DNA from: Niveispirillum cyanobacteriorum
Lineage (GTDB): Bacteria; Pseudomonadota; Alphaproteobacteria; Azospirillales; Azospirillaceae
Assembly: GCF_002868735.1 (NCBI RefSeq)
Contig: NZ_CP025613.1
Coordinates: 868,001 to 932,000, forward strand
DNA: 64,000 nucleotides
Direction: 5' to 3'
Shown: in pieces, positions 14,353 to 43,498 of the stretch
Layout: every line of letters starts with the position of its first letter
How positions within the stretch are numbered: the first letter of the stretch is position 1
Translations under genes and position numbers: made by a program
The notes under the pieces: generated by a model
The model's input: the letters and a program-made list of their open reading frames with translations, nothing else
Databases searched by the model: none
What the model was told of the DNA's origin: nothing

Positions 14353-14475
14353 AAGGGCGGCTTCCGGTCTGTCTCTCGGCCCTTTCTGGTAGAGCCTGCG
14401 GAAGCGGAATGCAATGTCCCGCACCGGCCTGTATATAACGCAAAAGATTTGTGATTAAAAAATGACAAAACCCGA

Positions 14476-14504
14476 TTGACGAAGTGGGGAATTAAATTCA
14501 ATAT
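14476..14504 (+). promoter_or_regulatory. candidate sigma-70-type promoter for the porin leader
   Basis: TTGACG, a 17-base spacer and CAATAT lie in an AT-rich patch. Transcription from here would give a leader of nearly 300 bases containing the palindrome at 14580, the short peptide at 14623 and hairpins near 14662 and 14715. Confidence 0.35.
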
Positions 14505-14579
14505 CCCCATCGGTGGTGTTGAACCCATCCGCGGGCATTTGACCTGACAGCTTGCGCCGCGTCACCAAACGCTAAAGCG

Positions 14580-14595
14580 CCACGAAGCTTCGTGG
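14580..14595. repeat. 16-base perfect palindrome in the porin leader
   Basis: CCACGAAGCTTCGTGG is an exact palindrome 27 bases before the short leader ORF. It may be a protein-binding site or a hairpin without loop in the leader RNA. Confidence 0.5.
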
Positions 14596-14622
14596 TGTCC
14601 TGAACCTTAAAGGAGACACCCG

Positions 14623-14643
14623 ATGACCTGCTGTTGTCCTTGA
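14623..14643 (+). CDS. putative leader peptide MTCCCP (three consecutive Cys codons)
   Basis: A six-codon open frame, ATG ACC TGC TGT TGT CCT TGA, has a strong ribosome site AGGAG seven bases upstream. It lies about 155 bases before the porin start, with GC-rich hairpins between (near 14662-14678 and 14715-14737). A run of identical amino-acid codons followed by alternative stem-loops is the classic layout of a translation-attenuation leader, here sensing charged tRNA-Cys or cysteine status. Expression and function are inferred, not shown. Confidence 0.5.
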   Translation: MTCCCP

Positions 14644-14714
14644 CACGACAGAACGTTGCCCCGGCGGTGCTTACGCCGTAAGGCCCTGATCACGCAAATG
14701 AAACCAAGGCCGGA

Positions 14715-14737
14715 GCCGGCGCCTTCAGGCGACCGGC
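14715..14737 (+). promoter_or_regulatory. stable hairpin in the porin leader
   Basis: GCCGGCGCC pairs with GGCGACCGGC around a TTCA loop, with one bulged A. It sits between the MTCCCP peptide and the porin. It has no T run, so it would act by RNA folding or Rho rather than as an intrinsic terminator. Confidence 0.45.
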
Positions 14738-14799
14738 GCAAGGGTCCTTATGCCCCGCAAAACCCGGCCACAAGAACCAGATCCATGAAGGGAAAGCCT

Positions 14800-16053
14800 A
14801 TGTCCTCCTTCCGTTCCAAGACCGCCGCCCTGCTGCTGACGGGTGCTGCCCTCTCCGCCCTGTCCCTGCCCGCCGCCGCCCAGTCCGCGTCAGAGGTTGA
14901 GGCCCTGCGCGCCCAGGTACAGTCGCTGCTGGCCCGCATCGAAAAGCTGGAGAAGGCCCCCAGCACACCCGCCGGCCCGCCCGCCAGCAAGGACGCCCCC
15001 CTTGTCGTTGCCGATGCCTATAAGGCGCCGCAGGTGGTGCAGTCGGGCAATGGCAAGGTGAAGCTGACCCTGTCGGGACAGATCGGTCGCGCCGTGATCG
15101 TGGCCGATGACGGTTTCGACAGCGACGCCATCCATGGCGACAACGCCACGGCATCGTCACGCCTGCGCCTGTCCAGCCAGGCCAAGCTGGACGATAACTG
15201 GACCGCTGGCACCGATATCGAGCTGGAAACCTCGTCCGCCTCCACTCGCAATACCGGCTTCGGCACCGACAGCGGCACCTTCTCAGTGAATGAGCGCAAG
15301 GTGGAATTCTGGGTGCAGCACAAGGAATTCGGTCGTCTCTGGGTGGGTCAGGGCGATACCGCCACCAACCAGACCTCGGAAGTGGACCTGTCGGGCACCA
15401 GCACCCTGATCAGCCATTCCGATATCGGCGCCACCTTCGGCGGCATCGCCTTCCGCAACAAGGCGACACGCGCCGCTGGCGTCACGGTCAACAACGCGTT
15501 CAACAATTTCGACGGCCTGCACCGTGAGGATCGGGTGCGTTACGACACGCCCACCTTTGGCGGCGGCTTCCAGCTGTCGACCAGCTTCACCGAAGGCGGG
15601 GCCACCGATGGGGCCGTGCGCTACAACGCCAAGATCGGCGATACCGAGGTGGCTGCCGCCATCGCCTATGCCGATAATGACAGCCGCACCGGCTTCGACA
15701 CGCAGACCAACGGCTCCATCTCGGTGAAGTTCGCCAATGGCTTCAACGTCACCGCCGCCGCCGGCACGCGCGACCTGGGCCCCCGCGACAGCGATTTCTG
15801 GTACGGCAAGGTCGGTTATATCGCCAAGCTGACCAGCATCGGCAACAGCGCCTTCGTGGTGGATTACTTCACCCAAGATGATTTCGCGGTGGCCGGTGCC
15901 GATGCCAAGGCTTGGTCGGTCGGCTATGTCCAGACCGTCGATGCCTTTGCGTCCGACTTCTATATCAGCTTCCGCAACCACAGCTACGACACCCGCACGG
16001 CCGACTTTAAGGACGTGTACGGCGTGATCACCGGGGCGCGCGTGCGCTTCTGA
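14800..16053 (+). CDS. outer-membrane porin
   Basis: Exported beta-barrel porin, 417 residues. A signal peptide (MSSFRSKTAALLLTGAALSA) ends near PAAAQ. A short coiled coil follows (SASEVEALRAQVQSLLARIEKLE region, residues about 28-52), then a Pro-rich linker and a barrel of alternating strands, ending in the typical terminal Phe (GVITGARVRF). The N-terminal coiled coil resembles trimeric or peptidoglycan-linked porins of alphaproteobacteria. GGAAAG precedes this ATG; in-frame upstream ATGs lack both a ribosome site and a signal peptide. It is preceded by an unusually long leader with a Cys-run peptide, so it may be sulfur- or cysteine-regulated. Solute unknown. Confidence 0.85.
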   Translation: MSSFRSKTAALLLTGAALSALSLPAAAQSASEVEALRAQVQSLLARIEKLEKAPSTPAGPPASKDAPLVVADAYKAPQVVQSGNGKVKLTLSGQIGRAVIVADDGFDSDAIHGDNATASSRLRLSSQAKLDDNWTAGTDIELETSSASTRNTGFGTDSGTFSVNERKVEFWVQHKEFGRLWVGQGDTATNQTSEVDLSGTSTLISHSDIGATFGGIAFRNKATRAAGVTVNNAFNNFDGLHREDRVRYDTPTFGGGFQLSTSFTEGGATDGAVRYNAKIGDTEVAAAIAYADNDSRTGFDTQTNGSISVKFANGFNVTAAAGTRDLGPRDSDFWYGKVGYIAKLTSIGNSAFVVDYFTQDDFAVAGADAKAWSVGYVQTVDAFASDFYISFRNHSYDTRTADFKDVYGVITGARVRF

Positions 16054-16139: not shown

Positions 16140-17183
16140 ATGACCGGCACAATCCTGCCCATCGCCCCCGTTCCCCACCGTGCGGCGTCCCTGTGTCTGG
16201 TTCCGGAAAAGCCGGGTTTCACGGTCGGTACCGACCTGTCGCCCGAAGTGGCCGATGTGGTCCGCATCATCGCGGGCAGTGCCACGGGCGATGGCGATCT
16301 GGCGGAAACGCGCCGCATCTTCACCCAGGTGCGCCGCGCCCTGGGGCCGGAGGCGCCGGATATCGCCTCGGTGCGGGAAGAAACCATCATCGGCCCCGGC
16401 GGCCCGCTGCGCCTGCGGCTCTACCGCCCGTCCTTCGGTTTCCGGCCCCTGCCGGCCCTGCTGTTCTTCCATGGTGGCGGCTGGACCGTGGGGGATCTGG
16501 ACAGCCATGACACGCTCTGCCGGCAACTGGCGGTCGCCACGGGCCATGCCATTGTGGCCGTGGATTACCGGCTGGCACCCGAACATCCCTGGCCCGCCGC
16601 CATTGAGGATGGCTGGGCAGCGCTGCGCTGGCTGGCGGCTTACGCGCCCCTGCTCGCCATTGATCCGCTGGCCATCGGCGTGGCGGGTGACAGTGCGGGC
16701 GGCAATATCGCCGCTGTCCTGGCGCTGAAGGCGCGCGATGTCGGCGGGCCGATCCTGAAGACCCAGGTGCTGATCTATCCCGCCGTCGATCTGGCCGCCG
16801 GCCTGCCCAGCCATTTCACCCGTGCCGACGGTTACCTGCTGACCCGTCAGGCCTATGTCGCTTATGTCCGCAACTATCTGGCGGGCCAGGAGGTTGAAGG
16901 CGACTGGCAGGTTTCACCCCTGCGCGCCGACCGTCTGGATGGGCTGCCGCCCACGGTGATCATCACCGCCGGCTTCGATCCGCTGCTGGATGAAGGCCGG
17001 GCCTATGCTGGCCGGCTGGCCGCCGCCGGGGTGCCGGTGCTGCACCGGCTGTACCCCGACATGGTGCATGGTTTCATTACCATGGGCGGTCGCCTGCCCG
17101 CCGCCAATCGCGCTATCGCCGATATCGGTCGCGCCCTGGCCTCTTACGATATATACGCCTTCAGCGACGGGGGCGGGATCTGA
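16140..17183 (+). CDS. HSL-family alpha/beta hydrolase (esterase/lipase)
   Basis: Cytoplasmic carboxylesterase of the hormone-sensitive-lipase family, 347 residues. The oxyanion motif FFHGGGW is at about 120, the nucleophile motif GDSAGGN at about 188, the Asp in TAGFDPLLDEG at about 285 and the His in DMVHGF at about 315. No signal peptide is present. GGAG lies seven bases before the chosen ATG. The stop codon lies in an inverted repeat and is followed by GC-rich repeats; the next gene is convergent. Confidence 0.88.
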   Translation: MTGTILPIAPVPHRAASLCLVPEKPGFTVGTDLSPEVADVVRIIAGSATGDGDLAETRRIFTQVRRALGPEAPDIASVREETIIGPGGPLRLRLYRPSFGFRPLPALLFFHGGGWTVGDLDSHDTLCRQLAVATGHAIVAVDYRLAPEHPWPAAIEDGWAALRWLAAYAPLLAIDPLAIGVAGDSAGGNIAAVLALKARDVGGPILKTQVLIYPAVDLAAGLPSHFTRADGYLLTRQAYVAYVRNYLAGQEVEGDWQVSPLRADRLDGLPPTVIITAGFDPLLDEGRAYAGRLAAAGVPVLHRLYPDMVHGFITMGGRLPAANRAIADIGRALASYDIYAFSDGGGI

Positions 17184-36006: not shown

Positions 36007-37413
36007 ATGGCTTTGCGTGGATTTCCGGTGTCATTGCCTTTGGAAGGGCAGAAGGTTCTGGTGGTGGGCGGCGGCGAACTGGCTCTGCGCAAGGCGCGGC
36101 TGGTGGCCAAGGCCGGTTGCCGCCTGACCATCATCGCCGGGGAAATCCATCCTGACCTCGCCAAACTGGCCGACAAGGTGGTCCTGCGGGATTTCACACC
36201 AGATGATGTGGAAGATCACCGTATCATCTTCGCCGCCACCGATGTGGAAGAGGTTGACCGCGCCGTGGCCGATGCCGCCAACAAGGCGGGCATCCTGGTC
36301 AATGTCCCGGACAAGCCGGCCTTGTCCAGCTTCATCATGCCGGCCATCATCGACCGGGAGCCGATCACCATCGCCATCTCGTCGGGTGGGGCCAGCCCTG
36401 TGCTGGTCCGGCGTCTGCGTGAGCGGCTGGAAGCAGCGCTGGAACCCGGCCTGGGCCGTCTGACCACCCTGCTGGACAGTTTCCGCACTGCCGTAAAGGC
36501 CACGCGGGAGAATGAAACCGCCCGCCGCCGCTTCTGGGAAGCGGTGATCGACGGCCCCGTGGCCCGTGACTTCCTGGCAGGCCGCGAGCAGTCGGCGCGC
36601 GAGGCCCTGCTGGCCGCGGTCAACAACCCCGACTACGGACAGGCCCGAACTGGCACCGTCGCCCTGGTCGGCGCCGGGCCCGGCGACCCGGACCTTTTGA
36701 CCCTGCGCGCGCTACGCGTTCTGCAGGATGCCGACGTGGTCGTGCATGACAAGCTGGTGGATGAGCGGATCATGGACTATGTCCGCCGCGACGCCCGCCG
36801 CATCTATGTCGGCAAGTCCAAGTCCCACCACACGATGAGCCAGGAAGCCATCAACCAGCTTCTGGTGGCAGAGGCCAAGGCTGGCCACCGCGTGGTCCGC
36901 CTGAAGGGCGGCGACCCGTTCCTGTTCGGGCGTGGTGGCGAAGAGATGCAGGCCCTGCGCTTCGCCAACATCCCGGTGGAGATCGTCCCCGGTATCACGG
37001 CGGCCCTGGGCTGCGGTGCCTCTACCGCCATCCCCGTCACCCACCGCGATCATGCCGCCGGCGTCACCTTCGTGACGGGCCATGGCAAGGATGGGGAGCC
37101 TGATCTGGACTGGCAGGCGTTGGCCCGCCTGCGCCACACGCTGGTGGTCTATATGGGCCTGTCGGCGGCGGAGACCATTGCTCGCCGCCTGACCGAGGCC
37201 GGCATGCCGGCCGACACCCCCGCCGCCCTGATCGAAAAGGGCACGCGGCCGGATCAGAAGCTGATCACGGGCACCCTTGCCACCCTGGCACCGCTGGCGG
37301 CGGCGCACGGGCTGGTGGGGCCGGCGATCATCATCATCGGCGATGTTGTCCGTTTGGCCGACCCCGCCCTTATCACCACGCTGGTGCCCGATCACCTGCG
37401 CGAAGCCGTTTGA
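36007..37413 (+). CDS. cysG: siroheme synthase (methyltransferase, dehydrogenase, ferrochelatase)
   Basis: Trifunctional enzyme making siroheme, the cofactor of sulfite reductase, from uroporphyrinogen III. The N-terminal dehydrogenase/ferrochelatase half has the NAD motif VLVVGGGELALRKARLV and SSGGASPVLVRRLRERLEAAL. The C-terminal SUMT half starts at about residue 217 with LVGAGPGDPDLLTLRALRVL and carries RLKGGDPFLFGRGGEE, VPGITAA and PVTHRDHAA. At 468 residues it is complete. First gene of the sulfur operon. Confidence 0.95.
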   Translation: MALRGFPVSLPLEGQKVLVVGGGELALRKARLVAKAGCRLTIIAGEIHPDLAKLADKVVLRDFTPDDVEDHRIIFAATDVEEVDRAVADAANKAGILVNVPDKPALSSFIMPAIIDREPITIAISSGGASPVLVRRLRERLEAALEPGLGRLTTLLDSFRTAVKATRENETARRRFWEAVIDGPVARDFLAGREQSAREALLAAVNNPDYGQARTGTVALVGAGPGDPDLLTLRALRVLQDADVVVHDKLVDERIMDYVRRDARRIYVGKSKSHHTMSQEAINQLLVAEAKAGHRVVRLKGGDPFLFGRGGEEMQALRFANIPVEIVPGITAALGCGASTAIPVTHRDHAAGVTFVTGHGKDGEPDLDWQALARLRHTLVVYMGLSAAETIARRLTEAGMPADTPAALIEKGTRPDQKLITGTLATLAPLAAAHGLVGPAIIIIGDVVRLADPALITTLVPDHLREAV

Positions 37414-37432
37414 GACAGGGAAGACCGTAGAG

Positions 37433-37756
37433 ATGTTGGTCAAAGCCAAGGGAACCCAGCAATCCGTCGCCGCCAGCCGTCTTCTGGACGGAGAGGCCGT
37501 ATGGCTGGGCACCGGCAACATATGGGTTGAGGACGTGGCCCAGGCCGCCGTGTTTGACGGGGCCGATGCCATTGCCGAAGCGCTCTCCTTCGCCAAGGCC
37601 GAGGAGAAGCGCCAGATCGTGGTCGATGTCTACCCGCTGGATGTGGAGATCACCGAGGCCGGCACCCGCCCCACTCACCTGCGTGAGCGTCTGAAGGGCA
37701 TCGGCCCCACCGTCCGCCGCGACCTGGGCAAGCAGGCCCGCCAGCCCGCCGCCTGA
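37433..37756 (+). CDS. DUF2849 protein of the sulfite reductase operon
   Basis: A small soluble protein of 107 residues matching the DUF2849 family, which is seen almost only beside sulfite reductase in alphaproteobacteria. It begins MLVKAKGTQQSVAASRLLDG with GEAVWLGTGNIWVED, and has a basic C-terminus. No metal or cofactor motif is visible, and its function is unknown; context suggests a role in assembling or supplying the reductase. It lies 19 bases after cysG and 19 bases before the reductase gene. Confidence 0.85.
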   Translation: MLVKAKGTQQSVAASRLLDGEAVWLGTGNIWVEDVAQAAVFDGADAIAEALSFAKAEEKRQIVVDVYPLDVEITEAGTRPTHLRERLKGIGPTVRRDLGKQARQPAA

Positions 37757-37775
37757 CCCCGATTACAAAACAGAG

Positions 37776-39512
37776 ATGACAGGCCAAACCCCCATGCCTG
37801 ATACGCACAGCCCCGCCCTCCGCAGCAATCAGCCGGCCGACGCGCATGCCGCCGTCTATCGCTATGACGAGTTCGACAAGACCTTCATCTTCGAGCGTGT
37901 GGAACAGTTCCGCGCCCAGGTCGAACGCCGCCTGAAGGGTGAGATTACGGAGGAGGAGTTCAAGCCCATCCGGCTGATGAACGGCCTCTACCTTCAGCTT
38001 CACGCCTACATGCTGCGCGTGGCCGTTCCCTACGGCATGCTGTCATCGACCCAGGTCCGGCGTCTGGCCCGCATCGCGCGCGTCTATGACAAAGGCTACG
38101 GCCATTTCACGACGCGCCAGAACATCCAGTTCAACTGGCCCAAGCTGGAGGATGTGCCCACCATCCTGCGCGAACTGGCCGAAGTGGACATGCATGCCAT
38201 CCAGACCAGCGGTAACTGCATCCGCAACGTGACGACGGATCAGTTCTGTGGTGCCGCGGCGGATGAGCTGGTGGACCCCCGCGTCTATGCCGAGATCCTG
38301 CGGCAATGGTCCACCATGCACCCGGAATTCACCTATCTGCCGCGCAAGTTCAAGATCGCCATCACGGGCAGCCCAAACGACCGCGCCGCCGTGCAGGTGC
38401 ATGATATCGGCCTGATCGCCAAAAAGGATGAGGTTACGGGCCGCGTTGGCTTCACCGTCTATGTCGGCGGTGGCCAGGGTCGCACCCCCTATCTGGCCGT
38501 CAAGGCGCGCGACTTCGTGCCGGTGGAAGAGATCATCGGCTATCTGGAAGCGATCCTGCGCGTCTATAACCAGCTGGGCCGGCGCGACAATATCTATAAG
38601 GCGCGCATCAAGATCACCGTGAATGAGATGGGGGCCGACAAGTTCATCGGCCTGATCGAAGAGGAATATGCCCGCCTGCCGCGGCAGAAATTCCATGTCG
38701 ATCCCGCCATCGTGGACGCGATCCAGACCCATTTCGCCCCGCCGCCCTGGGTCGATCTGCCGGCCGTGTCGGACAGCTTCGAGGCCGCCAAGGCTGCCGA
38801 CCCGGCCTTTGCCCGCTGGACCCGCACCAACCTGACCGAACACAAGACACGCGGTTACGCCATCGCCACCATCTCCTTGAAGCCCATCGGCGGCATTCCG
38901 GGTGATGCGGAATCCTCCCAGCTGGAAACCGTCGCCGATCTGGCCGACCTGTATAGCTTTGGCGAAGTGCGCGTGACGCATGAGCAGAATCTGGTTTTGG
39001 CCCATGTGCGCAAGGATGATCTTTACCCGCTGTGGAAGGCGCTGGACGCTGCTGGCCTGGGCACCGCCAATGCCGGGTTGATCAGCGATATCATCGCCTG
39101 CCCCGGCCTGGATTACTGCGCCCTGGCCAATACCCGCGCCATCCCGGTGGCGCAGCGTATCGCCGAGCGGTTCGCCGATCTGGACCGGCAGCATGATCTG
39201 GGTGAGCTGAAGATCAAGATCAGCGGCTGCATCAATGCCTGTGGCCACCACCATGTCGGCCATATCGGCATTCTGGGCGTGGATAAGAAGGGCGAGGAGT
39301 TCTTCCAGATCCTGTTGGGCGGCGATGCCGGCACCAATGCGGCCCTGGGCGAGATCGTCGGCCCCGGCTTCGATTATGACGGCATCATTGATGCGGTCGA
39401 AACCGTGGTGAACACCTTCGTGAATCTGCGCCAGCCCGGCGAGATTTTCATTCAGACGCTGGCCCGTACCGGCCACGCCCCGTTCAAGGAGGCTCTCTAT
39501 GCCCGTGCTTGA
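37776..39512 (+). CDS. cysI: sulfite reductase hemoprotein (nitrite/sulfite reductase)
   Basis: Reduces sulfite to sulfide with siroheme and a [4Fe-4S] cluster. The duplicated nitrite/sulfite reductase fold is clear. Cluster cysteines appear in IIACPGLDYCALANTR and KIKISGCINACGHHHVGHIG, the latter giving the shared siroheme ligand. The N-terminal RQNIQFNWPKLEDVPTIL belongs to the ferredoxin-like half. At 578 residues it resembles ferredoxin- or NADPH-type hemoproteins. No CysJ is adjacent, so Fpr/ferredoxin is the likely donor. It overlaps the next gene by 14 bases. Confidence 0.94.
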   Translation: MTGQTPMPDTHSPALRSNQPADAHAAVYRYDEFDKTFIFERVEQFRAQVERRLKGEITEEEFKPIRLMNGLYLQLHAYMLRVAVPYGMLSSTQVRRLARIARVYDKGYGHFTTRQNIQFNWPKLEDVPTILRELAEVDMHAIQTSGNCIRNVTTDQFCGAAADELVDPRVYAEILRQWSTMHPEFTYLPRKFKIAITGSPNDRAAVQVHDIGLIAKKDEVTGRVGFTVYVGGGQGRTPYLAVKARDFVPVEEIIGYLEAILRVYNQLGRRDNIYKARIKITVNEMGADKFIGLIEEEYARLPRQKFHVDPAIVDAIQTHFAPPPWVDLPAVSDSFEAAKAADPAFARWTRTNLTEHKTRGYAIATISLKPIGGIPGDAESSQLETVADLADLYSFGEVRVTHEQNLVLAHVRKDDLYPLWKALDAAGLGTANAGLISDIIACPGLDYCALANTRAIPVAQRIAERFADLDRQHDLGELKIKISGCINACGHHHVGHIGILGVDKKGEEFFQILLGGDAGTNAALGEIVGPGFDYDGIIDAVETVVNTFVNLRQPGEIFIQTLARTGHAPFKEALYARA

Positions 39513-40008
39513 TCGTGGTCTGCCCATCGACGACCGCTGGACCGACCTTGCCGATGACCAGGACATCCCCGCCGAGGGGGCGATCATCGTCTCCCTGGAA
39601 CGCTGGCGCACCGAACGCGACGCGCTGACCGCCCGGCGCGATGCCGTCGGCGTGCGGCTGAAATCCAATCAGCTGGCCACCGAAATCGCGGATGATCTGG
39701 GTTCCCTATCGCTGGTCGCCCTGGAATTCCCGAAATTCCGCGATGGCCGCGCCTTCTCTGCGGCACGCGAGCTGCGGGAACGGTTCGATTATAAGGGCGA
39801 GATCCGCGCCTTCGGCCATATCATCCCCGACCAGTACCTGTTCCTGACCCGCGTGGGCGTGGATACGGTGGTGGTCCCGGCCGACCGTGTCGGCCCCGCC
39901 TGGGCGCATGCGCTGAAGGAAATCTCGGTGGCGTTCCAGCCGGCCTTGGGCCGGGAGGAAGGCGTCTCCCTGCTGCGCCGTCACCTGAAAGGCACGGTCC
40001 CGGCATGA
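39499..40008 (+). CDS. DUF934 protein of the sulfite reductase operon
   Basis: A 169-residue protein of the DUF934 family, sometimes annotated oxidoreductase-like but with no established activity. It has VGVRLKSNQLATEIADDLG, LVALEFPKFRDGRAFSAAR and HIIPDQYLFLTRVGVDTV. Its start codon is inside the 3' end of cysI and its end overlaps cysH by four bases, so it is translationally coupled to both. The tight coupling implies a needed accessory role, for example in the reductase or reduction step. Confidence 0.85.
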   Translation: MPVLDRGLPIDDRWTDLADDQDIPAEGAIIVSLERWRTERDALTARRDAVGVRLKSNQLATEIADDLGSLSLVALEFPKFRDGRAFSAARELRERFDYKGEIRAFGHIIPDQYLFLTRVGVDTVVVPADRVGPAWAHALKEISVAFQPALGREEGVSLLRRHLKGTVPA

Positions 40009-40730
40009 TCACCGACCTTCAGGCCCGCGCCCGCGACCTGAATGCCCGTTACGGTCATCTGGAAGGTGTAGAACTTCTCCAGCCCCTGATCGAGACGGAG
40101 TTCAAGGGTCAGCTGGCACTGGTCTCCTCCTTCGGCACGGAAAGTGCCGTCCTGCTGCATATGGTGGCACAGATCGACCGCGACCTGCCCATCCTGTTCG
40201 TGAACACGCGCAAGCTGTTTGGTGAAACCCTGCGCTACAAGCGCAAGCTTGTTGAAACGCTGGGCCTGACCGGCCTGCGGGAGCTGTCGCCCACCACCGA
40301 GGCGGAGGCGGCCAACGACAAGGATGGCCTGCTCTGGCGCACCAGCAACACAGCCTGCTGTGATTTCCGCAAGGTGCAGGTGCTGAATGCCGGTCTGGCG
40401 CCCTTCAGTGCATGGATCACGGGGCGCAAGCGTTATCAGGCCACGACCCGCATCGAACTGCCCTTGTTCGAAGCGGCGGATGGCCGGATCAAGATCAACC
40501 CCTTGGCCGGCTATACCCGTGCCGACGTGGAATCCTATCTCGACCGGCACGGTCTGCCGCGTCACCCGCTGGAAGAGGATGGTTACCTCTCCGTGGGCTG
40601 TATGCCCTGTACCGACCGCGTCGCACCGGGCGAAGACATTAGAGCCGGCCGCTGGCGCGGTCAGGAAAAGACGGAATGCGGGATCCACCTGCCGCTTTCG
40701 TCCGCAACAAATCTGGTGGGAGCCTCCTGA
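40005..40730 (+). CDS. cysH: thioredoxin-dependent APS/PAPS reductase
   Basis: Reduces adenylyl sulfate (or its 3'-phosphate form) to sulfite. The adenine-nucleotide alpha-hydrolase loop is at SSFGTESAVLLHM. The cysteine pair CC at 118-119 plus C199 and C202 (GCMPCTD) form the [4Fe-4S] set of APS reductases, and the catalytic Cys is in ECGIHLP near residue 225. This pattern marks the APS-type enzyme, although a kinase domain making PAPS is also encoded downstream. It overlaps the DUF934 gene and shares its stop with the start of cysD. Confidence 0.93.
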   Translation: MITDLQARARDLNARYGHLEGVELLQPLIETEFKGQLALVSSFGTESAVLLHMVAQIDRDLPILFVNTRKLFGETLRYKRKLVETLGLTGLRELSPTTEAEAANDKDGLLWRTSNTACCDFRKVQVLNAGLAPFSAWITGRKRYQATTRIELPLFEAADGRIKINPLAGYTRADVESYLDRHGLPRHPLEEDGYLSVGCMPCTDRVAPGEDIRAGRWRGQEKTECGIHLPLSSATNLVGAS

Positions 40731-41545
40731 TGAGCAGCACCGATCAACATCTCGACCATCTCGACCAACTGGAAGCCCAGAGCATCTATATCCTGCGCGA
40801 GGCGCGCGTGCGCCTGAAGCGTCTGGGTCTGCTCTGGTCACTGGGCAAGGACAGCAACGTCCTGATCTGGCTGTGCCGCAAGGCCTTTATGGGCGAACTG
40901 CCCTTCCCCGTGGCGCACCTGGATACCGGCTTGGAATTCCCGGAATCGTACGAGTTCCGGAACCGCTATGCCGAGGAATGGGGCCTCAACCTGATCAAGG
41001 ATGAATGCCCGCCCATCGAGATGACGGACCCGACCCTGCCACCCGGCACGCGCATCGCCGCCCGCAAGTCGCTAGGTCTGGCCGCAGCACTGGAGAAGTA
41101 TCAGTTTGATGGGCTGATCACCGGCATCCGCCGCGATGAACAGGCCACCCGCGCCAAGGAACGCATCTTCAGCCCGCGCGGCCTGGATGGTGCCTGGCAG
41201 GCCGCCCACCAGCCGCCCGAATTCTGGGACCAGTACACGATTGAGCGTCACCCGGGCACCCATACCCGCGTGCATCCGCTGCTGGCCTGGACCGAGGTTG
41301 ACGTCTGGCGTTACATCAAGCGGGAGGAAATCCCCTTGGTGCCGCTCTATTTCGCCAAGGATGGCAAGCGTTTCCGCTCGCTGGGCGAGATTGGCATCAC
41401 CTTCCCGGTGGACAGCAATGCCAGCACCATCGACGAGATCATCGACGAACTGGAAACCACGCGCACGCCCGAACGCGCCGGCCGGTCCATGGACCATGAG
41501 GCCGAAGACGCGTTCGAACGCCTGCGTGCGACTGGTTACCTCTAA
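40730..41545 (+). CDS. cysD: sulfate adenylyltransferase subunit 2
   Basis: ATP sulfurylase small subunit, 271 residues. The PP-loop reads LLWSLGKDSNVLIWL, then FPVAHLDTGLEFPESYEFRN and the LITGIRRDEQATRAKERIFS block, with the C-terminal EAEDAFERLRATGYL. It forms APS from ATP and sulfate together with the next gene. GGGAG lies before the ATG, and the TGATG junction with cysH suggests coupling. Confidence 0.95.
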   Translation: MSSTDQHLDHLDQLEAQSIYILREARVRLKRLGLLWSLGKDSNVLIWLCRKAFMGELPFPVAHLDTGLEFPESYEFRNRYAEEWGLNLIKDECPPIEMTDPTLPPGTRIAARKSLGLAAALEKYQFDGLITGIRRDEQATRAKERIFSPRGLDGAWQAAHQPPEFWDQYTIERHPGTHTRVHPLLAWTEVDVWRYIKREEIPLVPLYFAKDGKRFRSLGEIGITFPVDSNASTIDEIIDELETTRTPERAGRSMDHEAEDAFERLRATGYL

Positions 41546-41566
41546 GAACACGGGTAGAAGAAGATC

Positions 41567-43498
41567 ATGGCGAACGCCGCTCTCCGGATCGATACGGTCC
41601 CGGCCCCTACACCGTCCCAAGGTGCCACTGTGAAAAAGGCCCCTCTGGCCCCCTATCCCATCGTCATTGTCGGCCATGTCGATCATGGCAAGTCGACCTT
41701 GATCGGCCGCCTTCTGCACGATACGGACAGCCTGCCTGAAGGCCGTCTGGCGGAGCTGAAGAAGGTCTCCGAACAGCGCGGCCTGCATATGGAATGGTCA
41801 TTCCTGCTGGACGCACTGCAGATCGAACGCGATCAGGGCATCACGCTGGACACGACGCGCATCTGGTTCAAGACGGCAAAGCGTCCCTACGTCATCATCG
41901 ACGCGCCGGGCCATCGTGAGTTCCTGCGCAACATGGTCACCGGGGCCGCCGCCGCCGACGCCGCCGTGCTGGTCACCGATGCCGAACGCGGCATCTCCGA
42001 ACAGACGCGCCGCCACGCCTACCTGCTTTCGCTGCTGGGCGTGCGCAAGGTGATCGTGGCCGTCAACAAGATGGATCTGGTCGATCACGCCGAAGACGCC
42101 TGGAAGGGTGTGGCCGGTGATGTCAGCGAGTATCTGCAGAAGCTGGGGATCGAGCCGCTTTACGTCATCCCGCTGTCGGCCCGCCATGGTGACAATATCG
42201 CCGCGCGGTCAGACAAGATGGGCTGGTATCGCGGGCCCACCCTGCTGGAGGCGCTCGACCTGCTGACCCCGACCGCTGCCCGGACGGAAGCGCTGCTGCG
42301 CCTGCCGATCCAGGATGTGTACCGCAAGGGCGACACCCGTCTGGCCGTGGGCCGTATCGAGACGGGCCGCTTGAAGGTCGGCGACAAGGTCGAAATCGCG
42401 CCGACCGGACAGCCGGCTACCGTGGCCAGCATCGATGCCGGCAAGGGTTCGGTCAGTGAGGCGCGGGCCGGCCAGTCGGTCGCCGTTTCCTTCATCGAAG
42501 ACGCGGCGCTGAACCGGGGGCAGATAATCGCGCCTGCCGGCCACATGCCGCACATTGCCACCACCATCCGCGTCCGCGCATTCTGGCTGGACCCGGAAAG
42601 CCTGACGGCGGGCAGCCGCATCACCCTGCGCCTGACCACCTCTGAACACCCGGTGGTAGTGGAGAAGTTTGAGCGTCTGGTGGATGTGGAGAACCTGAGC
42701 GACAGCGAGGGTTCCGAGCTGGGTCAGGGCGGCATCGCAGAGATCGTGCTGCGCTCTTCCGCCCCCATCGCGTTCGACCATGCCGCCGACCTGCCCATCA
42801 CGGGCCGCGCCGGTCTGGCGCGCGGTGGCCGCATTGTCGGCGGCTGTATCCTGCTGGGTGCCGCCAGCAACGTCACCGTTGCCGGCCCCGTCACCGCCGT
42901 CAACAGCTCCGTTGACCGTGACGCGTTTGAGGCGCGCAACGGCCATCGTGGCGGTGTCGTCTGGCTGACGGGCCTGTCGGGTGCTGGCAAGTCCACCCTG
43001 TCCATGGGCACGCAGCGCCGTCTGTTCGATGATGGCTGGCGTGTGGCCGTGCTGGATGGCGATAATCTGCGCAAGGGCCTGAACAAGGACCTGGGCTTCA
43101 CGCCCGCCGAACGGCTGGAGAATGTCCGCCGGGTGGCGGAAGTGGCAAAGCTGATGGCCGAAACCGGTACTGTCGTGCTGGTCAGCCTGATCTCCCCCAC
43201 CACCGAACTGCGCGATCTGGCCCGTTCCATCATCGGTGACGGGTTCCATGAGGTGTGGGTGAAGGCCGATGTCGCCACCTGCGCCGCCCGCGACCCCAAG
43301 GGTCTCTACGCGGCAGCCCAGGCCGGCAAGATCCAGCAATTCACCGGCGTCTCCGCCCCGTTTGAGACCCCGGTGAACCCGGAACTGGTGCTGGACACGT
43401 CCGAAATGGACATCACCACCGGCACCGAACTCCTAATCGCCCATATCCGCCGCCACCTGGCGCTGAGCCAGGCCGACGGCCACGCGGTCGGTATTTGA
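41567..43498 (+). CDS. cysNC: sulfate adenylyltransferase subunit 1 fused to APS kinase
   Basis: Bifunctional 643-residue protein. Residues 1-440 are a GTPase of the EF-Tu fold: GHVDHGKST at 36-44, DAPGH and NKMDLV. It stimulates APS formation by CysD. Residues about 460-643 form the APS kinase CysC, with a second P-loop GLSGAGKST near 470 and the loop [16 protein letters not shown]. This fusion is also known as NodQ in rhizobia. Last gene of the operon, followed at once by a strong terminator. Confidence 0.95.

Follow-up and report, generated by a model that had tools for sequence, protein, structure and literature searches.

What controls the expression of the porin gene that, in Niveispirillum cyanobacteriorum, lies behind a six-residue open reading frame with three consecutive cysteine codons? 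A first-pass annotation of the window, meaning the whole stretch of 64,000 nucleotides that was analysed, had proposed that ribosome stalling on this leader lets the porin respond to cysteine supply. The leader, its AGGAG box, a 16-base palindrome before it and two stems after it, as described there, were all recovered; overlooked, however, was a putative aptamer upstream of the leader. The features of the locus, all on the plus strand, are as follows.

14476..14504, plus: promoter-like TTGACG, 17 nt, CAATAT, recognised by eye
14527..14585, plus: SAM-II-like aptamer variant (RF00521, 27.3 bits; covariance model R1, 83.2 bits; covariation in P1)
14580..14595, plus: hairpin P3, the perfect 16-base palindrome CCACGAAGCTTCGTGG, with conserved pairing behind the aptamer
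14594..14620, plus: possible Shine-Dalgarno-masking pair, GGTGTC (14594-14599) with GACACC (14615-14620), overlapping P3, in six orthologs
14609..14615, plus: Shine-Dalgarno sequence of the leader, AAAGGAG, identified from sequence (AGGAG core at 14611-14615, 7 nt 5' of the ATG)
14623..14643, plus: leader ORF MTCCCP*, ATG ACC TGC TGT TGT CCT TGA (Cys codons at 14629-14637)
14662..14678, plus: hairpin after the leader, two pairs of which change on both sides in some of six orthologs
14715..14737, plus: second hairpin, G+C-rich, with no T run after it here
14800..16053, plus: porin, a predicted barrel, with an alternative in-frame ATG start at 14785
16140..17183, plus: alpha/beta hydrolase (Pfam Abhydrolase_3)

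The porin locus and its upstream RNA

The product of 14800-16053 has no Pfam or NCBIfam match, and its designation as a porin is supported, with moderate confidence, by a barrel prediction. An AlphaFold model computed with 15 homologs gave a many-stranded barrel with N-terminal helices (mean pLDDT 65.4, pTM 0.60), whose best PDB match was the porin Omp32 (E 6.2e-15), with DcaP also among the matches (E 2.2e-10). The alpha/beta hydrolase probably belongs to the same operon, and a homolog of it in another genome, G067, has the aptamer directly upstream (L089). The promoter-like sequence was not reported by a consensus scan; ATTGACG and a similar second box recur in the porin orthologs. Sulfate assimilation genes, to which the first-pass annotation had drawn attention, are indeed present in the window (cysG, 36007-37413; CysN/C, 41567-43498), but about 20 kb from the leader. 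This cluster of cysG, reductase and CysN/C (36007-43498) has no R1 match; in other Alphaproteobacteria cysG carries the variant.

To estimate how readily such a leader arises by chance, we counted ATGNNN(TGY)3 in the same genome and found 24 sites. Among the contexts inspected, only the MTCCCP leader has GGAG 4-10 nt upstream, while two other sites (L011 and L022) show a weaker AGGA-like stretch and ORFs of 16 residues. Within the window, 17 short ORFs are led by a Shine-Dalgarno sequence (7 on the plus and 10 on the minus strand), and MTCCCP alone has at least two Cys. Orthologous porins of the genus carry MTCCCP in three genomes and MTTCCP in three, so the expectation that homologous porin leaders keep their Cys codons held for six of seven, with at least two Cys each; the seventh, in G068, reads MAHCRQIA and has a single one. 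In other leaders of the genus, too, there is just one Cys, at the end.

Upstream regions were inspected at 19 porin loci. Seven (L034-L040) have both the aptamer block and a Shine-Dalgarno-led short ORF, the loci with the leader being the same seven as those with the conserved block, and in the remaining 12, including a paralog in the same genome (L046), neither was present within 420 nt upstream. Regulation specific to porins was therefore rejected, given these 12 loci and the occurrence of the element at non-porin genes of the same genome. Among the orthologs, DNA at about 14520-14600 is almost unchanged, and thus more conserved than a leader ORF requires.

At gathering scores, Rfam gave no match anywhere in the window. 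With the threshold relaxed, 14521-14595 scored 27.3 bits for RF00521 (SAM-II), whose cut-off is 36 (E 0.00029 in 441 bases). Stem P1 pairs 14530-14534 with 14557-14561, and the core consists of AUUUGA (14537-14542), AGCUUG (14549-14554) and GCUAAAGC (14571-14578). None of 33 variant loci scanned reached the 36 bits of RF00521, although the same scan did find SAM_alpha elements upstream in six. Membership in SAM-V was tried and rejected, since RF01826 had no match at E<=1 in eight genomes, nor up to E 10 in the window.

A family of cysteine-ending leaders behind the variant

The covariance model R1, built from nine sequences, has matches at E<=0.01 in 75 of the order's 82 genomes, and in 72 of the 82 the best E is below 1e-11. 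In a sample of the class, R1 matched at E<=1e-8 in 72 of 385 alphaproteobacterial genomes and 48 of 276 genera; here the scores run continuously from 47 down to 38 bits, so that the score gap seen in the order search is not general. In its own genome R1 has only three matches, before the porin, a sulfate-binding protein gene and a small unknown protein. The last of these (G000:C1:1073416-1073476, minus strand; L256/L119) has the leader MAIHIARKINMTSDAYGLMRGC*, with the small-protein gene behind it. In other genomes, elements of this sub-threshold RF00521 type precede the sulfate-binding protein gene, the G067 hydrolase and methionine-transport operons. The exact core pattern occurs at no fewer than 120 loci in named genomes, the matches listed including Azospirillum, Niveispirillum, Nitrospirillum, Bosea, Chelatococcus, Methylopila, Inquilinus and Rhodoplanes. 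One locus (L339, NZ_VCCH02000150.1), titled Mycobacterium sp. KBS0706, has an alphaproteobacterial element with an Inquilinus-like leader, and in our opinion the genome is probably misnamed.

In 13 loci the variant is preceded by a second, weaker match; five of these loci, together with L164, pass the SAM_alpha threshold. Tandem SAM_alpha elements above the Rfam threshold are thus found at L164, L189, L198, L199, L205 and L223, and weak upstream matches below it at L166, L178, L183, L186, L196, L197, L214 and L218. Within the family searched, genes for a sulfonate-type binding protein and metN-like genes are preceded by yet another SAM_alpha type (GCGCCGATTTGAGC...GGGCGC...GCTAAAG, about 33-43 bits; L103-L112 and L118). 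A survey of methionine regulons based on profiles places SAM_alpha in Rhizobiales and Rhodobacterales, mainly before metY (PMC4239095), and such a distribution fits an element that escapes the Rfam profile.

The loci analysed are part of the R1 matches from the order and class searches: 97 plus 61 matches, minus the 13 weak upstream ones and two duplicates (L128 and L245), leave 143 rows, which represent 141 places, as L130 coincides with L038 and L133 with L088. With a start searched 24-62 nt behind the aptamer match, these rows fall into 88 leaders, 26 long ORFs placed directly behind the element and 29 with neither; many of the latter have a long ORF whose start lies outside 24-62 nt or has a weak Shine-Dalgarno sequence, and one (L210) has a Cys-rich short ORF without it. 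Measured from the aptamer match, the start lies at 30-56 nt for short ORFs led by a Shine-Dalgarno sequence and at 34-60 nt for long ORFs. A separate listing of leaders looked up to 380 nt behind the match.

The core motifs of SAM-II, AUUUG, CAGCUUG and GCUAAAG, are kept in 126 of the 143 rows, with near-variants in others; a pattern expression for the core matched 128 rows. Stem P1 is paired in 99.8% of the cells of the fitted alignment, in which the 13 weak upstream matches are included, and four of its five pairs change on both sides; one pair shows 13 GC-to-CG changes, probably supplied by those 13 matches. Covariation of the P2 pseudoknot is invisible because GCUUGC and GCUAAAG hardly vary. 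P3 has five or six of six positions paired in 113 of 114 loci, the partner being the best of about 37 offsets, and it occurs in compensatory versions (CCACGA/TCGTGG, CCACGG/CCGTGG, CCTCGA/TCGAGG and CCGCAA/TTGCGG).

The short ORFs differ widely in length, sequence and N-terminus, and they end rich in Cys, for example MRTCCCRT*, VPCCRCCA*, GLCCRMRNASCRR*, GGTCC*, AACCCRR*, CCCRR*, GLCCR*, GCCCCN*, RCCRR* and MTCCCP*. Thus, the prediction that Cys codons would be conserved among relatives while their flanks vary was borne out in the leader family. Of the 88 leader rows, 52 carry at least two Cys within the last eight residues (17 of 27 genera and 10 of 18 families), and 10 carry none there; the corresponding figure of two or more for Shine-Dalgarno-led control ORFs from flanks and opposite strands is 24 of 733. 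Relatedness was handled in these comparisons by counting per genus; in genus averages, TGY makes up 9.7% of codons in frame versus 4.1% and 2.0% in the other frames. Cys is commonest at the third residue from the stop. Leader Cys codons favour TGT, which is rarer than TGC in long ORFs (TGT:TGC 143:78 in leaders versus 238:612), and the TGT share is higher in leaders in 22 of 25 genera.

A replicate came from another set of loci, selected on the aptamer core alone, whose genera are partly shared with the first. Among the matches listed (at least 120 loci, 121 sites), 79 sites were new by sequence, namely, 71 leaders, six direct, one with none and one near an edge. Of these 71 leaders, 55 have at least two Cys and 70 have at least one, with a TGT:TGC ratio of 111:70 versus 292:818 in long ORFs, again among the matches listed. 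None of 30 canonical SAM-II loci, all from one genus, had a Cys leader. Taken as sequence comparison, these data show the relation to SAM-II, P3, the near-fixed start distance, the in-frame Cys enrichment, the TGT bias and the sulfur gene context. The earlier proposal of a cysteine-responsive leader is thereby strongly supported as far as the Cys leader goes, whereas its specificity for the porin did not stand. Moreover, cysteine is probably not the only input, because the leader sits behind a SAM-II-like aptamer that is found elsewhere without it.

Target genes and a possible two-input mechanism

Protein profiles were obtained for ten direct and ten leader targets. The direct ones comprise MetX, CysG, two O-succinylhomoserine sulfhydrylases, an O-acetylhomoserine sulfhydrylase, MetA, MetF, MetE, a sulfate-binding protein and one with no match at E 1e-60. 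Those behind leaders comprise two MetN-type ATPases with a NIL domain, two MetQ-type lipoproteins, two NMT1-type binding proteins, TauD, a solute-binding protein, a generic ABC ATPase and one unmatched protein, to which the porin studied here is to be added; one of the MetQ-type lipoproteins follows an ORF without Cys, and the 'leader' of L191 has none. No CysS was found among the 20. In these 20 proteins there is thus a tendency for the plain element to sit on synthesis genes and for the leader form to sit on uptake genes; the sulfate-binding protein and the G067 hydrolase, both direct targets, depart from it. In many leader loci the first gene encodes a small protein of no known family. Such proteins, of about 65-105 residues (such as MSTSNAYAIEVQGRSAGIVVAGQGGFTFFVSDW), recur in many genera behind the Cys leader and ahead of MetQ/MetN-type genes (for example at L093, L145, L149, L157, L215, L231 and L256); none of three representatives, of which two were N-terminal pieces, attained a Pfam or NCBIfam cut-off.

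Since a relative of SAM-II precedes a Cys-ending short ORF ahead of sulfur-uptake genes, two sulfur signals may be read on one RNA. Our preferred reading, to which we give a probability of about 0.55, is that a SAM-sensing element gates the translation of a Cys-sensing leader, making the uptake genes responsive to both SAM and Cys-tRNA; what we infer here are the ligand, the direction of the response, the stalling and the final step. The porin mRNA would begin with the aptamer variant of the SAM-II family, followed by the fixed hairpin P3 and then by the Cys-codon leader. Bound SAM would keep the ribosome site behind the aptamer closed, and when SAM is low the leader would be translated. If Cys-tRNA is scarce as well, the ribosome would stall on the Cys codons near the stop and hold the downstream RNA open for transcription or translation of the porin and hydrolase genes. 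With sufficient cysteine, the ribosome would leave at the stop, and the C-rich gap would shut expression down, perhaps via Rho. Leader translation would thus be the first gate and Cys-tRNA the second, the start site having been handed to the Cys ORF, and expression of the uptake genes would require low SAM together with low cysteine.

How the aptamer may close the start site was approached through pairing. The possible masking pair is present without any change in all six MT[CT]CCP porin orthologs. As a general device, masking of the pre-start region by the 3' arm of P3 plus the linker failed (3.69 observed versus 3.68 permuted, 110 distinct sequences), and the linker showed no excess pairing with the start region (4.49 versus 4.59). 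The P3 loop paired with the start region at 4.73 versus 4.16 permuted (sd 0.076; 121 distinct sequences, relatedness not controlled). The minimum free energy of the stretch from the 3' arm of P3 through the linker to the pre-start region is slightly low relative to shuffles, with a mean z of -1.09 for leaders and -0.54 for direct loci. The direct loci suggest control of initiation by the element at the start site that follows P3, in the manner of SAM-V and certain SAM-II riboswitches (PMC6061858, PMC9373788).

Downstream, 156 nt separate the leader stop from the porin start. The hairpins in between show little covariation (3 of 37 predicted pairs), and there is no terminator-like site at 14380-14810. 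Such sites occur elsewhere in 22 of 159 leaders versus 5 of 159 shuffles; intrinsic-terminator attenuation is accordingly unsupported at the porin and rare in other leaders. In 21 of 27 genera the stretch behind the leader has more C than G, and the top C/G ratio in 60-nt windows has a median of 1.81 there versus 1.48 in downstream DNA, a weak comparison because the control is mostly coding DNA. This composition suggests that Rho might act in the gap between leader and gene.

Four other explanations compete with the SAM-gated leader. It is unlikely, in our estimation, that SAM alone is sensed, with the aptamer governing initiation, the short ORF serving as a relay and the Cys codons not being sensors. 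The same element does stand directly before long sulfur genes in 26 of the 143 rows, and control by SAM-II at a distance has been published, with a Shine-Dalgarno sequence inside the riboswitch of Sinorhizobium meliloti metA being required for a start that lies 74 nt downstream (PMC9373788). However, such a relay leaves unexplained both the TGT bias and why unrelated short ORFs in many families should end in Cys codons. The converse is the cysteine attenuator of the first-pass annotation taken by itself, with SAM having no part and the aptamer being a remnant or binding another ligand; it accords with the Cys enrichment in both leader sets and with the variant scoring under the SAM-II threshold, but we consider it quite improbable, given that the core motifs are so widely kept and that methionine-synthesis genes have the element in front of them with no leader.

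Leader peptides that act in trans are known from Alphaproteobacteria, and in many leaders Cys is clustered beside Arg, so the Cys-rich peptide might itself act, either as a metal or redox sensor or in trans. We give this little credence, as the peptides vary so widely, MTCCCP has just six residues and the genes behind are sulfur genes. That the ORF is a chance product of a conserved RNA, the TGY runs reflecting structure rather than coding, would suit a porin leader that is very short and whose own sequence is predicted to fold, but the enrichment is in frame, near the stop and replicated in the second set, which makes chance the least credible explanation. The SAM-gated leader, for its part, has against it the below-threshold Rfam score, the lack of a local terminator, a masking pair that is not general and leaders with one Cys or none. 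A broader formulation, which we hold at even odds, is that an unrecognised branch of the SAM-II/SAM-V superfamily across Alphaproteobacteria controls translation 3' of an added hairpin, and that at uptake operons this site has been passed to a Cys leader, making a two-input device for low SAM plus low Cys-tRNA. Because the same aptamer is found both with a Cys leader and without one, reporter assays should be able to separate the two inputs.

Relation to known riboswitches and cysteine leaders

If true, the SAM-gated leader would reveal how bacteria can weigh SAM and cysteine within a single mRNA leader, in which a sensor of a small molecule precedes a ribosome sensor, and would explain how many Alphaproteobacteria control their uptake of methionine, sulfonate and sulfate. 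For the unannotated porin and the hydrolase it would mean a likely function connected with sulfur, and it would bring in a riboswitch variant as well as a family of peptides that current Rfam thresholds miss.

The variant shares with SAM-II (SAM_alpha, RF00521) the P1 stem, the AUUUG / GCUUG / GCUAAAG core, the occurrence in Alphaproteobacteria and the association with methionine and sulfur genes. It differs in falling under the Rfam threshold and in having the added P3, the near-fixed start distance and the Cys leaders. The canonical GACC/GGUC pairing (distal P2a) is not evident in it, and its gap between GCUUG and GCUAA is 14-17 nt versus 20 in the canonical sequences examined, very few in number because the pattern expression matched only 3 of 30 canonical loci. 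SAM-V is SAM-II-like and translational (PMC6061858), as proposed for the variant. The position behind SAM_alpha at some loci recalls the Pelagibacter SAM-II/SAM-V tandem (PMC11508383). The available text of PMC1273637 mentions neither 'sulfate' nor 'tandem', and PMC2864571 refers to added SAM-II representatives in its supplement.

For cysteine leaders, an alphaproteobacterial candidate is uORFC-8-2, with two tandem Cys codons in a short uORF before cysS in Rhodobacterales, where stalling on these codons has been proposed; as described in the accessible part of PMC8632094, it has a terminator stem with a U run, and that part mentions no SAM-II element, whereas the leader studied here precedes a porin. 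No earlier description of a SAM-II-like aptamer joined to a Cys leader was found in the literature searched, most subscription papers lying outside it, which is not proof of absence. In mycobacteria and other Actinobacteria, short ORFs before sulfur genes act as Cys-codon leader attenuators. The mycobacterial ones are reportedly leaderless, as the title of Canestrari 2020 has it. By contrast, the leaders of the variant are led by a Shine-Dalgarno sequence and lie behind a SAM-II-like aptamer. In the mgtA leader of Salmonella, which contains mgtL, one leader RNA joins an ion or metabolite signal with an ORF read through its amino-acid codons. The leader proposed here would have the same two-part design, with another signal, another amino acid and an unrelated RNA.
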